Translations under genes and position numbers: made by a program
Source of the DNA: an uncultured Actinomycetes bacterium
GTDB lineage: Bacteria; Actinomycetota; Coriobacteriia; Coriobacteriales; Atopobiaceae
Direction: 5' to 3'
Assembly (NCBI GenBank): GCA_900318935.1
Contig: ONMP01000010.1
Coordinates: forward strand, 1-41,345
Length of the DNA: 41,345 nucleotides
Shown: piece after piece, positions 1 through 32,292 of the stretch
Layout of the letters: every line of letters starts with the position of its first letter
Position numbering within the stretch: position 1 is the stretch's first letter
Notes under the pieces: generated by a model
What the model was told of the DNA's origin: nothing
The model's database searches: none
Seen by the model: only the letters and a program-made list of their open reading frames with translations

Positions 1-58
1 GGGGTGACGGGGGCGACAGTCCCCTGGGTACCCAGGGGACTGTCGCCCCCGTCACCCC
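1..58. repeat. 58-bp perfect palindrome at window edge
   Basis: Bases 1-29 are the exact reverse complement of bases 30-58, with GGTACC at the centre and no loop. The element is GC-rich and contains runs of G and C. No T-run follows, so it is not a typical Rho-independent terminator in either direction. It may continue to the left of the window. Its type recalls the dispersed palindromic (REP-like) elements of Coriobacteriia; a second perfect palindrome of similar size but unrelated sequence lies at 31126-31187. Confidence 0.85.
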
Positions 59-2386: not shown

Positions 2387-3301
2387 ATGGAACCCATCAC
2401 TCAAGGCATGACCGGAGCCGCGGTCGAAGACATACAGGAGCGACTGCGCTCCATCGAGTACGCAATCGATGAACAAGAACGGGCGAACCAGGAATTTGGC
2501 CCCTCGACCGCAACCGCCGTCGCACACTTCAGGCTCGACCATGGGCTGCCCTTGGGTGCCGAGGTCGACACACGTACCTGGGCCACGCTCGTGGACGAAA
2601 CGTACAAGATGGGCGACCGCACCCTATACCTGCGGCTTCCCAACTTCCATGGAGCAGACGTGCGCCAGCTGCAGTCCTGTCTGAATATCTTGGGCTTCTC
2701 TGCGGGCGAGGTTGACGGCTTCTTTGGCCCACATACTGAGGCTGCAGTCAAGCAATTCCAAGAAAGCATCGGCGTGCTGCAGGACGGCATGATGTTTCCG
2801 GACACCTTCGATGCCATCGAGCGCCTGCATCACGTGTGGGCAGGACGATCCGCCTCGGGACCACATCCCTTGGGTGCCATGGGCTTCGCCCGCGCAGCAA
2901 ACGTGCTCGAGCACGTGAGCATCTCGATTACCGCCGAAGACCCCATTTCGCGCAACGTGGCAGGTCGCATCTGGAACCTTGCCTCCGCCACCAACGAAAA
3001 GAGCGGCCTCGACATCGTGGAGTCTCCTGACCGCAAGCGTCCCGGCGATGCCGCCGTGCTCGTGCTTGGCATCACGCCCCCACCTGAGAACTCGTCCATG
3101 CCCAACGTCGTCGCCGACAACACCGCCACGCTCGCCCGCCGCATCCGCACCGCTGTGATGGGATCGAAGGAGGACGTGCCCGTCATACACGTCGAGCTTT
3201 CGCTCGGAGGGCCAGATTACGACGGCAGCTTCACCGTGAGCGACGCACAGACCTACGCCGTCATGCTGCTTGACGCGATTTGCGCCGCATTCAACGGCTA
3301 A
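2387..3301 (+). CDS. Peptidoglycan-binding protein with two PG_binding_1 domains
   Basis: The 304-residue product carries two tandem peptidoglycan-binding_1-type helical domains (about residues 5-70 and 80-145; the second contains the typical EVDGFFGPHTEAAVKQFQ stretch). The C-terminal half (about 165-304) has the spacing of an amidase_3-like fold, and I do not see clear zinc ligands. The arrangement resembles actinobacterial CwlM-like proteins, which have lost catalysis and act as regulators; that is an analogy only. No signal peptide is visible, so a cytoplasmic role is possible. GAGGCAGGA precedes the ATG. Its stop codon TAA shares its last base with the next gene's ATG. Confidence 0.75.
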   Translation: MEPITQGMTGAAVEDIQERLRSIEYAIDEQERANQEFGPSTATAVAHFRLDHGLPLGAEVDTRTWATLVDETYKMGDRTLYLRLPNFHGADVRQLQSCLNILGFSAGEVDGFFGPHTEAAVKQFQESIGVLQDGMMFPDTFDAIERLHHVWAGRSASGPHPLGAMGFARAANVLEHVSISITAEDPISRNVAGRIWNLASATNEKSGLDIVESPDRKRPGDAAVLVLGITPPPENSSMPNVVADNTATLARRIRTAVMGSKEDVPVIHVELSLGGPDYDGSFTVSDAQTYAVMLLDAICAAFNG

Positions 3302-5382
3302 TGGCTGGAACGTCATCACAAAGCAAGCGTCTGGAGTTCGTCGACATCGCCAAAGGCATTGGAATGCTGTGCGTCATCGCCGGTCACCTCAGCATCCGCG
3401 AGGTCAACTCGGTGATATACACTTTTCACATGCCGTTGTTCTTCCTCATCTCCGGATGGTTCTTTCGCCCGGCACGCAACTGGAAAGAGGGGCTTGCCAA
3501 ACGAGCAAAGCGCCTCCTTGCACCTTATGTTCTATGCTCTGTCGCCTGCGCATTTGGTGCGGGGGTGGAACGCATTATCGAGGGAAGGCTGGACGAAAGC
3601 TGGAATGCAGTAGCCGACATGTTTCTCACCACTCTATATGGTAGCGGCTCGCTCAAGAGTCCGGTGATAGGCATTCCGTCGTTCGGGGCGATATGGTTTC
3701 TCTTGGGTCTGTTTTGGGCGTTGACCATATACGACAGTATCGTTGGGAAGCGCTGGACTACGCCTGTGGTGCTGGCAACGTTCTTTGTGGGCGTGGCAAC
3801 GAGAGACTGGTGGTTGCCCTTCTCCATCCAAGCGGGCATGTGTGTGTTGCTGTTCGTTCATCTCGGCTGGCTGGCCAGAAGCTTTGTCGAGAATCCCAAG
3901 CTGCGGTTAGGCGCGATGCTATCGCGGGGAATACCCCCCTGGATGATCGCAATCTGCGCAGTGGCATGGTTTGTGGCATGGCAGTTGGACGGCGGCAAGA
4001 TGTACCTCGTCGCGAATTTCTTCACCTGCATCCCCGTCGACGTCATGGGGGCCGTTGCGGGCAGCATTCTCGTCATATGGTTTGCACGTTGCCTGACGCA
4101 CGTCCCCATCCTCTCCAAAGGCCTCGCGTACTTCGGACGGTACTCGCTCACAGTACTCTGCCTCCATATGTTTGAGATGAACATCATACCTTTGTGGGAC
4201 ATCATCGTGTCGCTCAACATCGCGGACGACACTTGGGAGATGTGGCAGCTCAACCTCCTCGGCTTCTCGGTCAAGCTTCTCTGGGCATGCATTGGCCTAT
4301 TCCTTCTGTGGCTGTGGAACCGCATGTCCAAGGCACGCAAAGACGGACAGGACATCGAGCAACAACTCGTGCCCTCAGCACAGCCTCGCATCCGCAGCTA
4401 CGACATCGCCAAGGGAATCGCGATCCTTCTGTGCGTAATCGGCCATCAGGCGGATATCGACCCCATCGCACGGGCGCTTATCTTCTCCTTCCACATGCCG
4501 TTCTTCTTTCTCGTGAACGCGGCTTTCGTGAGCAGCGAGTACGACGTGCGCAGGACACTCGGGCGCTCGGTGCGAACTCTGATCGTGCCCTATGTGGTTA
4601 TCTGCATTCTGGCTGCAGGACTCAAGGGACTGCTCACGCCCGAGGAAACAAAGGCGGCAATTGCCGAGCGGCTCGTAGCCATGCTCGGGGGCGTGAGCAC
4701 AGTTGGCAAGGTCTTCCCGTTCCTCAAGTCCGTATGGCTCGTGTGGTTCGTCGCCTGTCTCTTTGTCGCGCGCAACATCTACGTCATCGTCCGCCGGACC
4801 ACGCAGAAATCACCGATGGCCATACAGTTCGCTGTCCCGCTCGCACTTTTTGCGCTTGGTTGGTGGCTCGGCGAGAATGGGCTATACCTGCCTTGGAGCC
4901 TCGACGTCGCACTGTTTGCCCAAGTGTTCTTCCTCGTCGGCGATGAGGCCAGACGACGAGGCCTGCTCGATGCGCCTACCAATCCCGCTCTGCTCTTGGC
5001 AGCGGTTGCAACATGGGTCGCACTCGCACTTGGTGGCTACCAAATCGAGATGGCGACGAGGGACTATCCGGGTTTCGTCGCCTGCGTCCTTGGCGCATGT
5101 CTCGGAAGCTGGCTCGTCTTCCTCGCCTCGAAGTGGTTTGACACGCTCACCTCCAACCTCGGCGAGTCCTTCTCCCGCCTCTTTGCGTGGGCGGGACAAG
5201 AAAGCATGGTGATACTCGGGATTCACTGCCTCCGCATGATGTGGACGACGTGGGGCTCAAGCGGCGGCGATGGCGCATTCAGCTCCACGCTCGGCTGGGC
5301 GGGCAACGGCCTTGTCGAGGTGGCGTTCTGCCTCGCGACCTGCTATACGTTCCGCCGGATGCTGAGTGCCCGGAGTCGCTAA
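3301..5382 (+). CDS. Double acyltransferase-3 membrane protein
   Basis: The 693-residue product consists of two acyltransferase-3 (OafA/NodX-type) units joined head to tail. The first begins near residue 10 with RLEFVDIAKGIGMLCVIAGH, and the second near residue 367 with the matching SYDIAKGIAILLCVIGH; each is followed by FHMPLFF/FHMPFFF and about ten hydrophobic segments. Proteins of this family O-acylate surface polysaccharides or peptidoglycan at the membrane. Members usually have one unit of about 330-380 residues, so this is an internal duplication or fusion. The ATG at 3301 overlaps the upstream stop (TAATG), implying translational coupling. Substrate unknown; the galE and prenyl synthase neighbours suggest a cell-surface glycan. 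Confidence 0.88.
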   Translation: MAGTSSQSKRLEFVDIAKGIGMLCVIAGHLSIREVNSVIYTFHMPLFFLISGWFFRPARNWKEGLAKRAKRLLAPYVLCSVACAFGAGVERIIEGRLDESWNAVADMFLTTLYGSGSLKSPVIGIPSFGAIWFLLGLFWALTIYDSIVGKRWTTPVVLATFFVGVATRDWWLPFSIQAGMCVLLFVHLGWLARSFVENPKLRLGAMLSRGIPPWMIAICAVAWFVAWQLDGGKMYLVANFFTCIPVDVMGAVAGSILVIWFARCLTHVPILSKGLAYFGRYSLTVLCLHMFEMNIIPLWDIIVSLNIADDTWEMWQLNLLGFSVKLLWACIGLFLLWLWNRMSKARKDGQDIEQQLVPSAQPRIRSYDIAKGIAILLCVIGHQADIDPIARALIFSFHMPFFFLVNAAFVSSEYDVRRTLGRSVRTLIVPYVVICILAAGLKGLLTPEETKAAIAERLVAMLGGVSTVGKVFPFLKSVWLVWFVACLFVARNIYVIVRRTTQKSPMAIQFAVPLALFALGWWLGENGLYLPWSLDVALFAQVFFLVGDEARRRGLLDAPTNPALLLAAVATWVALALGGYQIEMATRDYPGFVACVLGACLGSWLVFLASKWFDTLTSNLGESFSRLFAWAGQESMVILGIHCLRMMWTTWGSSGGDGAFSSTLGWAGNGLVEVAFCLATCYTFRRMLSARSR

Positions 5383-7585: not shown

Positions 7586-7625
7586 CCATCTAGCGAGTTT
7601 TTCGCATCTGGGCCTTTGCCCAAAA

Positions 7626-7692
7626 AGAGGTGGTCCCTACCGTCAAGTGGGAGTGGTAAAAGAGGTGGTCCCTACCGTCAAGTGGGAGTGGT
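7626..7692 (+). ncRNA. ToxI-like type III antitoxin RNA array (copy 1)
   Basis: Two head-to-tail copies of a 35-base unit (7626-7660 complete, 7661-7692 complete except for its last three bases) lie directly upstream of a ToxN/AbiQ-family toxin gene. Each unit contains in order AGGTG, CTACC and AAGTG. From memory, the ToxI repeat of Pectobacterium has the same three blocks in the same order at close spacing, in a 36-nt unit. In type III systems each processed repeat folds into a pseudoknot RNA that traps the toxin. Position, repeat length and the promoter-array-hairpin-toxin order all fit. Two units is at the low end for such arrays. Antitoxin activity is inferred from context. Confidence 0.8.
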
Positions 7693-10150: not shown

Positions 10151-10189
10151 CAATCTAGCGAGTTTTCGCATCTGGGCCTTTGCCCAAAA

Positions 10190-10270
10190 AGAGGTGGTCC
10201 CTACCGTCAAGTGGGAGTGGTAAAAGAGGTGGTCCCTACCGTCAAGTGGGAGTGGTAAAAGAGGTGGTCC
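10190..10270 (+). ncRNA. Orphan ToxI-like antitoxin RNA array (copy 2)
   Basis: Two complete 35-base units (10190-10224, 10225-10259) identical to those of copy 1, plus the first about 11 bases of a third, preceded by nearly the same 49-base promoter-leader (10141-10189; differing from 7576-7625 at two bases and one T in a T-run). No toxin-like reading frame follows: downstream sequence shows no ToxN motifs on either strand. It is therefore an orphan array, either left by loss of a second toxin or copied from the first. If transcribed it could still neutralise ToxN proteins arriving on phages or plasmids (inference). Confidence 0.72.
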
Positions 10271-10608
10271 CCTTAGTCCTTTATGGAACAGCCTCATGCA
10301 GCCGCGGGGGTGCCGTGAGCCCAAGCTACAAGTCGGCTTGCCTGAATGACGTTGGAACGTCTCCTTGTATCGGGGACGATGCCCGGTACTAGTACCTGGG
10401 GATTCCCGCGCGACGACCAGCATATCCCCACCGATTGCTCTCCCCGCTCGGACATCCCCCGATCGCCTTGGCTGGCGCGAGCGATTGGTGCCGATCCCAA
10501 GGCCAACGCAGACGCGACCCCAAGCGCTGGCCATCCAATGACCTTTCCCATGGCGAAGGGGGCGGATGCGTGTCGCCTCCTTGCGCCATGCATCCGCCTC
10601 TCGCATCC
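10271..10608. other. 338-bp region without recognised gene
   Basis: Lies between the orphan ToxI-like array and a minus-strand surface-protein remnant. A palindrome GGTACTAGTACC sits near 10383-10394. A minus-strand frame with a hydrophobic start resembling a signal peptide (from about 10551) has no well-placed ribosome binding site and was not accepted. This may be decayed sequence from the 3' end of the truncated surface gene. Confidence 0.4.
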
Positions 10609-30318: not shown

Positions 30319-31128
30319 ATGAGACATGCGTCACGCATCAAGCGCCTCTTGGACTCCTATCGCCGCAGCCACAAGACCTTTGCGCTCTTCACCGTCCTCA
30401 GCACACTTGTAGTCTTGACCATGATTCGCTGCATCCTGAACGGCAACTACGAGAGCACCGCCCTGTGCGTCCTGTCCCTTCTGCTCTTTCTCGTGCCCGC
30501 CATCCTGCAGGACAGGATGAAGATCGAGATTCCGCCGGTCTTTCAGGGCATCATCTTTGGCTTCATCTTTGCGGCCGAGATCCTCGGCGAAGTCAACCAT
30601 TTCTACGTGCGAATTCCCGGCTGGGACACCATGCTGCACGCCATGAACGGCTTCCTGTGCACAGCCATCGGGTTTTCCCTCGTCTACCTGCTGAATCGCG
30701 GTAGCAAGAACGTCAACCTCTCGCCGTTCTACCTGACGCTCGTCGCCTTTTGCTTCTCCATGACCATCGGCGTGCTGTGGGAGTTCTTTGAGTACGCGAT
30801 AGACCAGGTCTTCTTCCTTGACATGCAGAAGGACTTCGTCGTGCGGGAGTTCGGCTCGGTGTCGCTCGACCCGCTGAACATGGGGACGCCCATCGACGTG
30901 GCCAACATCACCCAAACCGTCATCAACACGGCTTCCGGCACGACCTACACCATCGAGGGAGGCTACCTCGACATCGGCATCAACGACACCATGAAGGACC
31001 TGCAGGTCAACCTGCTTGGCGCCGTAGCGTTTTCGGTGATTGGCTACCCCACGCTCAAGTTCTCGAGAAGCTCAAAGGTGGTGGAGGGCCTGACCATCAG
31101 GCCAGCAGATCTGCCTCGTAAGGATTGA
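30319..31128 (+). CDS. Multi-pass membrane protein (YjdF/DUF2238-like)
   Basis: The 269-residue product has about seven hydrophobic segments (for example LVVLTMIRCIL, VLSLLLFLVPAIL, GIIFGFIFAAEIL, FYLTLVAFCFSMTIGVLWEFFEYAID and, after a loop, LLGAVAFSVIGY). The conserved-looking GWDTMLHAMNGFL and LWEFFEYAIDQVF resemble YjdF/DUF2238 proteins, whose function is unknown. The assignment is by motif recall only. GAGGAG lies about eight bases before the ATG. Its TGA stop forms the first three bases of a 62-bp perfect palindrome. Confidence 0.7.
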   Translation: MRHASRIKRLLDSYRRSHKTFALFTVLSTLVVLTMIRCILNGNYESTALCVLSLLLFLVPAILQDRMKIEIPPVFQGIIFGFIFAAEILGEVNHFYVRIPGWDTMLHAMNGFLCTAIGFSLVYLLNRGSKNVNLSPFYLTLVAFCFSMTIGVLWEFFEYAIDQVFFLDMQKDFVVREFGSVSLDPLNMGTPIDVANITQTVINTASGTTYTIEGGYLDIGINDTMKDLQVNLLGAVAFSVIGYPTLKFSRSSKVVEGLTIRPADLPRKD

Positions 31129-31187
31129 CCACTTTCCCACAGCGGGATCGTGGTCATGACCACGATCCCGCTGTGGGAAAGTGGTCA
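31126..31187. repeat. 62-bp perfect palindrome
   Basis: Bases 31126-31156 are the exact reverse complement of 31157-31187, centred on TCATGA, without any loop. The left end overlaps the stop codon of the membrane-protein gene. The right half forms the aberrant C-terminal codons of the ATPase pseudogene. The sequence differs from the palindrome at 1-58, but length and perfect symmetry agree. Confidence 0.9.
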
Positions 31188-32076
31188 CGAACGAAGCGAC
31201 TCTTGCCAAGGGCACCGGCATCCTTCATGGCCTGCCCCTGTTCCTCGGCGAGGTAGTAGTCATAGAGCAGCATCTCGAAGACGCGATTGGCGATCGCCAC
31301 CCTCCCGCCGCGCATGAGCAATGAGCAAAGCTGCTCCTTGAGCGTGGGATGGTCCTCGATCTTCCCCGTGAGGGAGTTGAAGAGGCTCATGTCATCGTCC
31401 TCGAGCAGCCGCCTCACGACACAGTTCACTCCTTCACGTGTCACGGCGTCAACGTCCATGCCAGCGGGGTGGTCGCGCTCGTACTCTTCCAGCATGCCCG
31501 CAACGTCCGTCCCGTCGAAGGTCATCCGCACCTTGAAGTCGGCGGCGATGTTCCATGGGCTGTTCGTCTTTGACACCTCCTCAGGGCGGATTACTGCATT
31601 GAGGTGCTTGACGTCGGTCACACCGCCAGCACGACCGACTGAAAAGCCGGAATGGATGAGTTCTTTCCTCGGTCAAGGTACTGCTGGCGGAGCTGCGCGA
31701 GGAGATCGAGGAACACCTGGTTGTTCGTCGCGCTATCCACCTCGCCGATGACGAGGACGACGGGACGCTCGCTCTCGCGCAGCCAGCGGGAGATGAATCG
31801 AAAGAGGGTCGAGAGCGTCAGCAGACGGGGGGGTCCGCCTCGGTGAATGCCTCGAGGCGGACCTCGATCGCCGCCGGCATCGAGAGCCTTCCATTCACGA
31901 CCTCCTCGAGCAGGATTCCGGAGAACCCACGCACAAACATCCCCTCCGTGCTGAAATCCGCGCTGCCAAGCTTCTGGAAAGAGAAGCCCGCCACCTCGTA
32001 GCTTCCGGCGAGGGCACGCTCCAGCGCCGCGAGCAGCGTGGTCTTGCCGTGCTGACGGGCGCGTGGACCGGTTCAT
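31154..32076 (-). pseudogene. AAA-like ATPase remnant (PF14516-like), frameshifted and truncated
   Basis: Minus-strand pieces of one protein lie in successive frames. The first is RARQHGKTTLLAALERAL (P-loop) through EAFTEADPP, up to a run of seven C near 31827-31833. After a frame change comes LLTLSTLFRFISRWL, VVLVIGEVDSATNNQVFLDL and AFQSVVLA. A second change near 31612 gives GVTDVKHLNAV, SPWNIAADFKVRM, MLEEYERDH and LFNSLTGKIEDH. The first about 40 residues before the P-loop are lost, and the normal C-terminus is replaced by codons from the 62-bp palindrome. Walker B reads GEVD where DEVD is usual. Confidence 0.85.
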
Positions 32077-32122: not shown

Positions 32123-32292
32123 CGAGTGCGTGGTCTGCGCCATCGTGGGAGCCCCGAGTGCGTGAGTGGGAATCGAGTGCGTGGTTTCGGTCATCCTGAG
32201 GCCCCCGAGTGCGTGATTCGCAGCCCGAACCACGCACTCGGCCTTCTCAGGATGACTTGAACCACGCACTCGATCTCGAACCATGCACTCGG
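32123..32292. repeat. REP-like cluster of CGAGTGCGTG units forming a giant stem-loop
   Basis: CGAGTGCGTG occurs in plus orientation at 32123, 32155, 32174 and 32206. Its complement CACGCACTCG occurs at 32231 and 32263, with a one-mismatch form at 32282. Spacings are 32, 19, 32 on the left and 32, 19 on the right, so the array is mirror-symmetric about 32223. Bases 32154-32292 can fold into one long imperfect hairpin. The 32-base unit also contains a GTCATCCTGAG-like core. I see no coding function. Confidence 0.8.

Follow-up and report, generated by a model that had tools for sequence, protein, structure and literature searches.

The palindrome and its locus

The subject of this report is a perfect 62-bp palindrome in the draft genome (G000; 3.8 Mb in 397 contigs, 88% complete) of an uncultured member of the Coriobacteriaceae, together with the repeat family to which its arms belong. 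It lies at 31126-31187 of the window, the whole 41,345-nucleotide stretch of contig ONMP01000010.1 that was analysed, between two convergent genes, one for a membrane protein and the other for an ATPase that is broken in this lineage (Table 1). A preliminary description, made from the sequence alone, had reported the symmetry to be perfect and loop-free and had assigned the stop codon of the membrane-protein gene to the palindrome, and both points proved correct: the symmetry holds at 62/62 bases, in two 31-nt arms with a loop of 0, and the TGA of the gene lies within the left arm. About 9e-15 such palindromes would be expected by chance in a random window of the same length with equal base frequencies, and the only other perfect palindrome longer than 18 bp in the window is one of 58 bp at its very start. 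As a single strand, the 62 bases fold into one hairpin of -39.2 kcal/mol (z = -15.4, DNA parameters).

A sister species of the same genus (G009) carries the identical 62 bases at the equivalent site, which makes it unlikely that an accident of assembly in the own genome alone produced the palindrome. Since both species share that copy at that site, it most likely predates their split. The preliminary description had suggested a recent generation of the palindrome; a recent origin at this site is contradicted by the identical copy in G009, the flanks of orthologous copies having diverged by about 4% between the two species.

Table 1. Features of the window around the palindrome and at the contig end (REP, repetitive extragenic palindrome; ORF, open reading frame).
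Feature	Position	Strand	Remarks
Left arm	31126..31156	+	REP-like unit TGACCAC-TTTCCCACAGCGGGATC-GTGGTCA, orientation F; alone, an imperfect hairpin
Right arm	31157..31187	-	Unit of the left arm inverted, orientation R; inter-unit linker 0 nt; 62/62 identical in G009
Membrane-protein ORF, 269 aa	30319..31128	+	No Pfam or NCBIfam match
TGA stop of membrane-protein gene	31126..31128	+	First three bases of the palindrome; likewise in G009 (ORF 2838-3647, L147)
3' fragment of broken AAA ATPase / PD-(D/E)XK gene	31154..31621	-	Final codons come from the palindrome
Second fragment of broken ATPase gene	31618..32076	-	
Deletion scar	31185..31188	.	About 432 bp of G009 sequence gone in the window; junction TCA, 3-bp microhomology
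Second perfect palindrome, 58 bp	1..58	.	Contig end; different palindromic family; begins GGGGTGAC

A dispersed family and its transposase

Each arm is one copy of a unit of the form TGACCAC-N17-GTGGTCA with an internal CCC...GGG, a single unit forming an imperfect hairpin and a pair one long hairpin. A search gave 94 matches in the own genome, both strands together, and the exact-unit pattern occurred in three of 100 genomes (66 times in the own genome, 104 in G009 and 2 in G014), the reversed control pattern having 0 matches in the same 100. One unit of the pattern also lies on a contig of a viral collection (IMGVR_UViG_3300005142_000016; L316, 488-518). The 41 sites that were read, including both flanks of the transposase gene described below, comprise 30 inverted pairs and 11 singles. 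The linker within a pair is 4 nt in 24/30 and absent (0 nt) in two, of which the window copy is one, and the linkers of all 30 pairs pooled are 81% A+T. Perfect pairs number 16 of the 30 and represent 10 different arm types.

One Y1_Tnp gene was detected in the own genome (PF01797, 50 bits; cut-off 23), and its two sides are occupied by 66-bp palindromes of the family (L070, 1127-1192 and 2001-2066), the downstream one of which provides the stop of the transposase gene itself. The 251-aa translation contains HVH and YIHQNP, in keeping with the HuH and Y---NP motifs as defined in PMC6006769, and a C-terminal helix-turn-helix (HTH) domain, HTH_7, at residues 217-247 (24.8 bits against a cut-off of 23.8). 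Among solved structures, there was a weak match to an HTH alone and none to TnpA above threshold. The ortholog in G009 is 98% identical and likewise has family copies on both sides, the next best matches fall to 43-44% identity, and homologues at an E-value of 1e-10 or better are present in 49 of the 100 genomes. The family and its particular transposase lineage thus co-occur in two sister species and essentially in no other of the 100.

Of 30 transposase loci examined, several, in other species of the order, have different palindromes of their own adjoining the gene. The clearest is that of G007, where a 66-bp loop-free palindrome beside the Y1 gene recurs, mostly loop-free, in at least 40 places (the best 40 of 145 candidates were scored, and 20 copies read). 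A second Y1 gene in G009 has yet another type of palindrome next to it, and the same scan gave no adjoining palindrome at some loci, e.g., L119, L124, L129 and L131.

Stop codons supplied by the elements

Within 150 nt of 43 elements, a subset of the copies, lie 32 gene 3' ends (ORFs of at least 150 aa, from longest-ORF calls and not curated genes), and 15 of the 32 fall exactly at an element's TGA, with another 10 at 0 to 10 nt away, three reading 34-38 nt into the element, and four farther off. That 15 of the 25 ends located from -3 to +10 should share one place has a probability of 1e-11 under even placement. Supplying a TGA stop is a habit of the family, and it is a habit with a precedent, since the ends of REPs bearing a GTAG tag were reported often to supply the stop codon of flanking ORFs (Di Nocera et al. 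2013, PMC3733652).

At one junction, beside a gene identified as MurB by Pfam, the end residue of the left gene is the same in 14/14 other genus members read, none of which has this family there, and their stops are TAG in 10, TAA in one and TGA in three; MurB in the own genome is one residue longer than in most genus members. In G003, only 16 nt lie between the two stops of this junction, and in other species of the genus unrelated hairpins are found at the same place. The gene pair at L013 has the same end residues in G011, from which the element is absent. A different palindromic unit, TGAGAAAAGGGGCCAAACCCCTTTTCTCA, was seen at the MurB junction of G013 (L280), and the left gene there stops on the TGA of that unit. 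For the membrane-protein gene of the window, homologues in other genera are 50-59% identical, and the attempt to deduce its native stop from them was dropped, their C-termini being too variable. One possibility for the replacement of a native stop is a deletion between the native TGA and that of the element, comparable with the TCA junction in the window; a TGA target preference, or deletions made by the transposase, are further possibilities.

Arms and linkers in the sister species

The two sister genomes, both draft assemblies of hundreds of contigs, were compared over 24 orthologous dimers, chosen as dimeric in both, with singles and broken sites dropped. The arms differ at 20/1488 bases (1.3%) and the flanks at 92/2340 (3.9%; Fisher p 1.6e-6), a flank count that omits 9/48 flanks as poorly aligned by a 20% rule. 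Within copies, the arms of 21 F-R pairs show 25 mismatches, as against a permutation mean of 67.9, and 0/20,000 permutations were as low. Such figures argue that some mechanism keeps the two arms of a copy alike. Three base pairs were changed on both arms (L049, L055 and L042), with 0.13 such changes expected at the arm rate and 1.15 at the flank rate, and other copies have changes on one arm only (e.g., L034, L035 and L059). Of the linkers, counted by hand, 6/24 are exactly inverted between the sisters, including both at the transposase, eight are the same, three are uninformative, and seven differ otherwise. The best inversion is that of L037, where the flanks differ at 0/120 positions and the linker has anchoring arm mismatches within 46 bp in each genome. 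At six sites (L033, L047, L058, L052, L065 and L067), a pair in one sister corresponds to a single in the other. Homogenised arms and inverted spacers are described as a signature of template switching between the arms of inverted repeats (PMC8604942), and the low arm divergence, the both-arm changes and the inverted linkers fit homogenisation of the arms by that route.

Synteny with G009 is broken at or beside the element at L031, L032, L050, L052, L060, L065 and L068, where rearrangement and assembly join are indistinguishable. A large duplication of the flank around an element on G009 contig C325 was set aside as a likely assembly product, its two flanks being 240/240 identical.

Decay of the ATPase gene and other repeats of the window

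G009 has an intact ATPase-like gene of 525 aa, whose product carries AAA_35 and PDDEXK_3 domains and whose end falls 17 bp short of the palindrome. In the window, the corresponding minus-strand ORF runs through the right arm to a TGA at 31156-31154. Relative to G009, the loss of about 432 bp runs inward from the palindrome's right edge, with TCA flanking the lost piece at both ends, and two more deletions in the ATPase region lie at short direct repeats. Because G009 has both the intact gene and the identical palindrome, and the window lost the 432 bp separately, the element was most likely already in place when the gene decayed. The preliminary description had held that the palindrome replaced the C-terminal codons of the ATPase: the last codons of the fragment are indeed read from the palindrome, but a simple replacement by it is contradicted by the intact gene of the sister and the separate deletion. 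Close to the broken gene, at 32123-32292, CGAGTGCGTG repeats build a large imperfect inverted repeat with 67-nt arms, 79% complementary and separated by 5 nt.

The 58-bp palindrome at the contig end represents a separate family, whose 70 matches on the two strands of the own genome correspond to about 35 places, and its start fits the GGGGWSAS motif reported for terminal inverted repeats (TIRs; PMC3733652). The own draft genome yielded no second Y1 gene. At 7599-7692 and 10163-10291, 2.6 kb apart, 35-bp tandem units (AAAAGAGGTGGTCCCTACCGTCAAGTGGGAGTGGT) lie inside an identical 94-nt stretch.

Interpretation

Our explanation, to which we give a probability of about 0.8, sees in the palindrome two REP-like units of 31 nt, paired as an inverted dimer with no linker, i.e., a REPIN-like non-autonomous element of the kind associated with RAYTs (REP-associated tyrosine transposases) or TIRYTs, in an uncultured member of the Coriobacteriaceae. 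The transposase would once have multiplied the units and placed them as single-stranded hairpins; the symmetry would be kept up by switches of template from one arm to the other during replication, a step for which there is partial evidence and which would make the arms alike and the linker invertible. Locally, the element stands between convergent genes with its terminal TGA as the stop of one of them, and the other, the ATPase gene, has decayed in this lineage, one deletion ending exactly at the palindrome's right edge. The preliminary description, which proposed a recent generation or an active mechanism (mobile palindromic unit or hairpin repair) and pointed to a RAYT-like transposase, is supported in part: the repeat family is dispersed and probably mobile, a RAYT-like Y1 gene flanked by its copies is present in the own genome, and some process does hold the arms alike, the mismatches within copies being far below those of permuted pairings.

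A number of observations weigh against this reading. None of the 30 linkers is GTAG, and the outer flanks of the units vary, so the tag was not seen beside them; the transposase scores 57.6 bits with NCBIfam NF047646 (REP-associated tyrosine transposase), under the cut-off of 80. At the flank rate, three both-arm changes do not significantly exceed expectation (P 0.11), and they would likewise arise if pairing were under selection. L037 alone among the inverted linkers is pinned by arm mismatches in each of the two genomes, and the other inversions, all in copies that are perfect in one genome or both, could be assembly choices, because assembly can put the short loop of a perfect palindrome the wrong way round. 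Between the sisters, searches that scored the best 40 of 97 and the best 40 of 85 candidates (L061 being omitted from one query) turned up no clean empty site in either direction, and for that reason no transposition event is seen; L044 and L048, at first unmatched, were located in G009. The preliminary description had looked to empty sites in relatives; in more distant genus members, gene junctions free of the element were seen.

Among other explanations, it is unlikely, in our estimation, that the palindrome is a bidirectional terminator or an RNA-processing hairpin, selected between convergent genes and matched in its arms by compensatory evolution of the stem. The position of the window copy would suit such a role, as would those of 8/43 copies between convergent and 18/43 between co-directional genes (contexts taken from longest-ORF calls rather than curated genes, on a subset of copies) and the unrelated hairpins at the MurB junction in other species. 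Yet 8/43 copies lie between divergent genes and 9/43 inside called ORFs, and selection on an RNA leaves the inversion of linkers and the changes between single and pair unexplained. A plain terminator was rejected, there being neither a T-tract nor a terminator-like site at the palindrome and no match in Rfam, and its conservation across distant relatives, which the preliminary description had named as the contrary outcome, was not seen.

Identity of the arms through gene conversion among dispersed copies, rather than exchange between the arms of one copy, is improbable: identical arms are common to several copies, but arm types differ among copies while the two arms of a copy match (16 of the 30 pairs perfect, with 10 types), and mismatch within copies is far under that of shuffled pairing. 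We give very little credence to the making of the palindrome de novo at this site by hairpin repair or fold-back replication of nearby sequence. The perfect, loop-free symmetry is what such an event would leave, and, pairs and singles being interconverted between sisters at several sites, single units of the family may undergo fold-back copying; against this, the 31-nt unit is present at dozens of unrelated sites, and the identical dimer in G009 already contradicts a recent event here.

Returning to the REPIN-like dimer, a wider proposal can be made tentatively, and we hold it to be somewhat less probable than its opposite: that, in the Coriobacteriaceae, it is from HTH-bearing Y1 transposases (subclass 2.1, or TIRYT-like) that large families of near-perfect palindromic dimers stem. 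The units would be self-correcting, their arms recopied from each other and their loops flipping fast enough to differ between sisters at about 4% flank divergence, and their places of settlement would be the exact ends of genes, whose stops they would take over.

Comparison with known systems

The family is a clear case of an HTH-bearing transposase with a dispersed palindromic family, and what is new is the occurrence of near-perfect palindromic dimers of the RAYT/TIRYT kind in the Coriobacteriaceae, a host lineage unmentioned in the available parts of PMC3733652 or PMC6006769. Searches of the literature for Coriobacteria with REP, and for REPIN with template switching, judged by title and the start of the abstract, found nothing on topic. 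Comparison of the two sister species also provides a natural setting for two questions: does template switching, beyond selection or the transposase, keep such palindromes perfect, and do the edges of palindromes favour deletions and the takeover of stop codons? The template switching of PMC8604942 is alike in its homogenised arms and inverted spacers, and differs in being described there in yeast genes.

Close parallels in structure are the REPINs (Bertels and Rainey 2011, PMC3116915): they are doublets of REPs in inverted orientation that fold into a single hairpin, are more frequent than singlets and are tied to one RAYT lineage, and compensatory changes are described for them. Unlike them, the present family has a linker of mostly 4 nt or none, and no GTAG tag. 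The GTAG-17/19 REP dimers of O. terrae, spaced by 1-2 bp (PMC3733652), share the very short linker and the stop-supplying ends; the unit sequence, the tag and the lineage are other, and the stop here is a TGA from the foot of the stem.

With the TIRtrons and their TIRYTs (PMC3733652), and with TnpA subclass 2.1 (PMC6006769), there is in common a RAYT-like Y1 HuH transposase with a C-terminal HTH; whether the two groups are the same was left open in PMC6006769, where, in the part available, REP-like sequences are not reported beside subclass 2.1 genes. TIRtrons have long inverted repeats, and not GTAG REPs, on both sides of the gene, as here, and some of the TIRs are self-complementary and are members of moderately repeated families that occur as dimers (PMC3733652). 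They differ in that the flanking repeat here is itself a near-perfect palindrome of 62-66 bp, and in the host. By eye, the GGGGWSAS motif, reported for some TIRs and not all, is absent from the family unit in either orientation. Because the GTAG tag, a score above the NCBIfam cut-off and the (non-obligatory) GGGGWSAS motif are all lacking, we have filed the family as a variant rather than a typical REP. In its working it resembles a REPIN, and its transposase places it closer to the TIRtron description than to the GTAG REP one.
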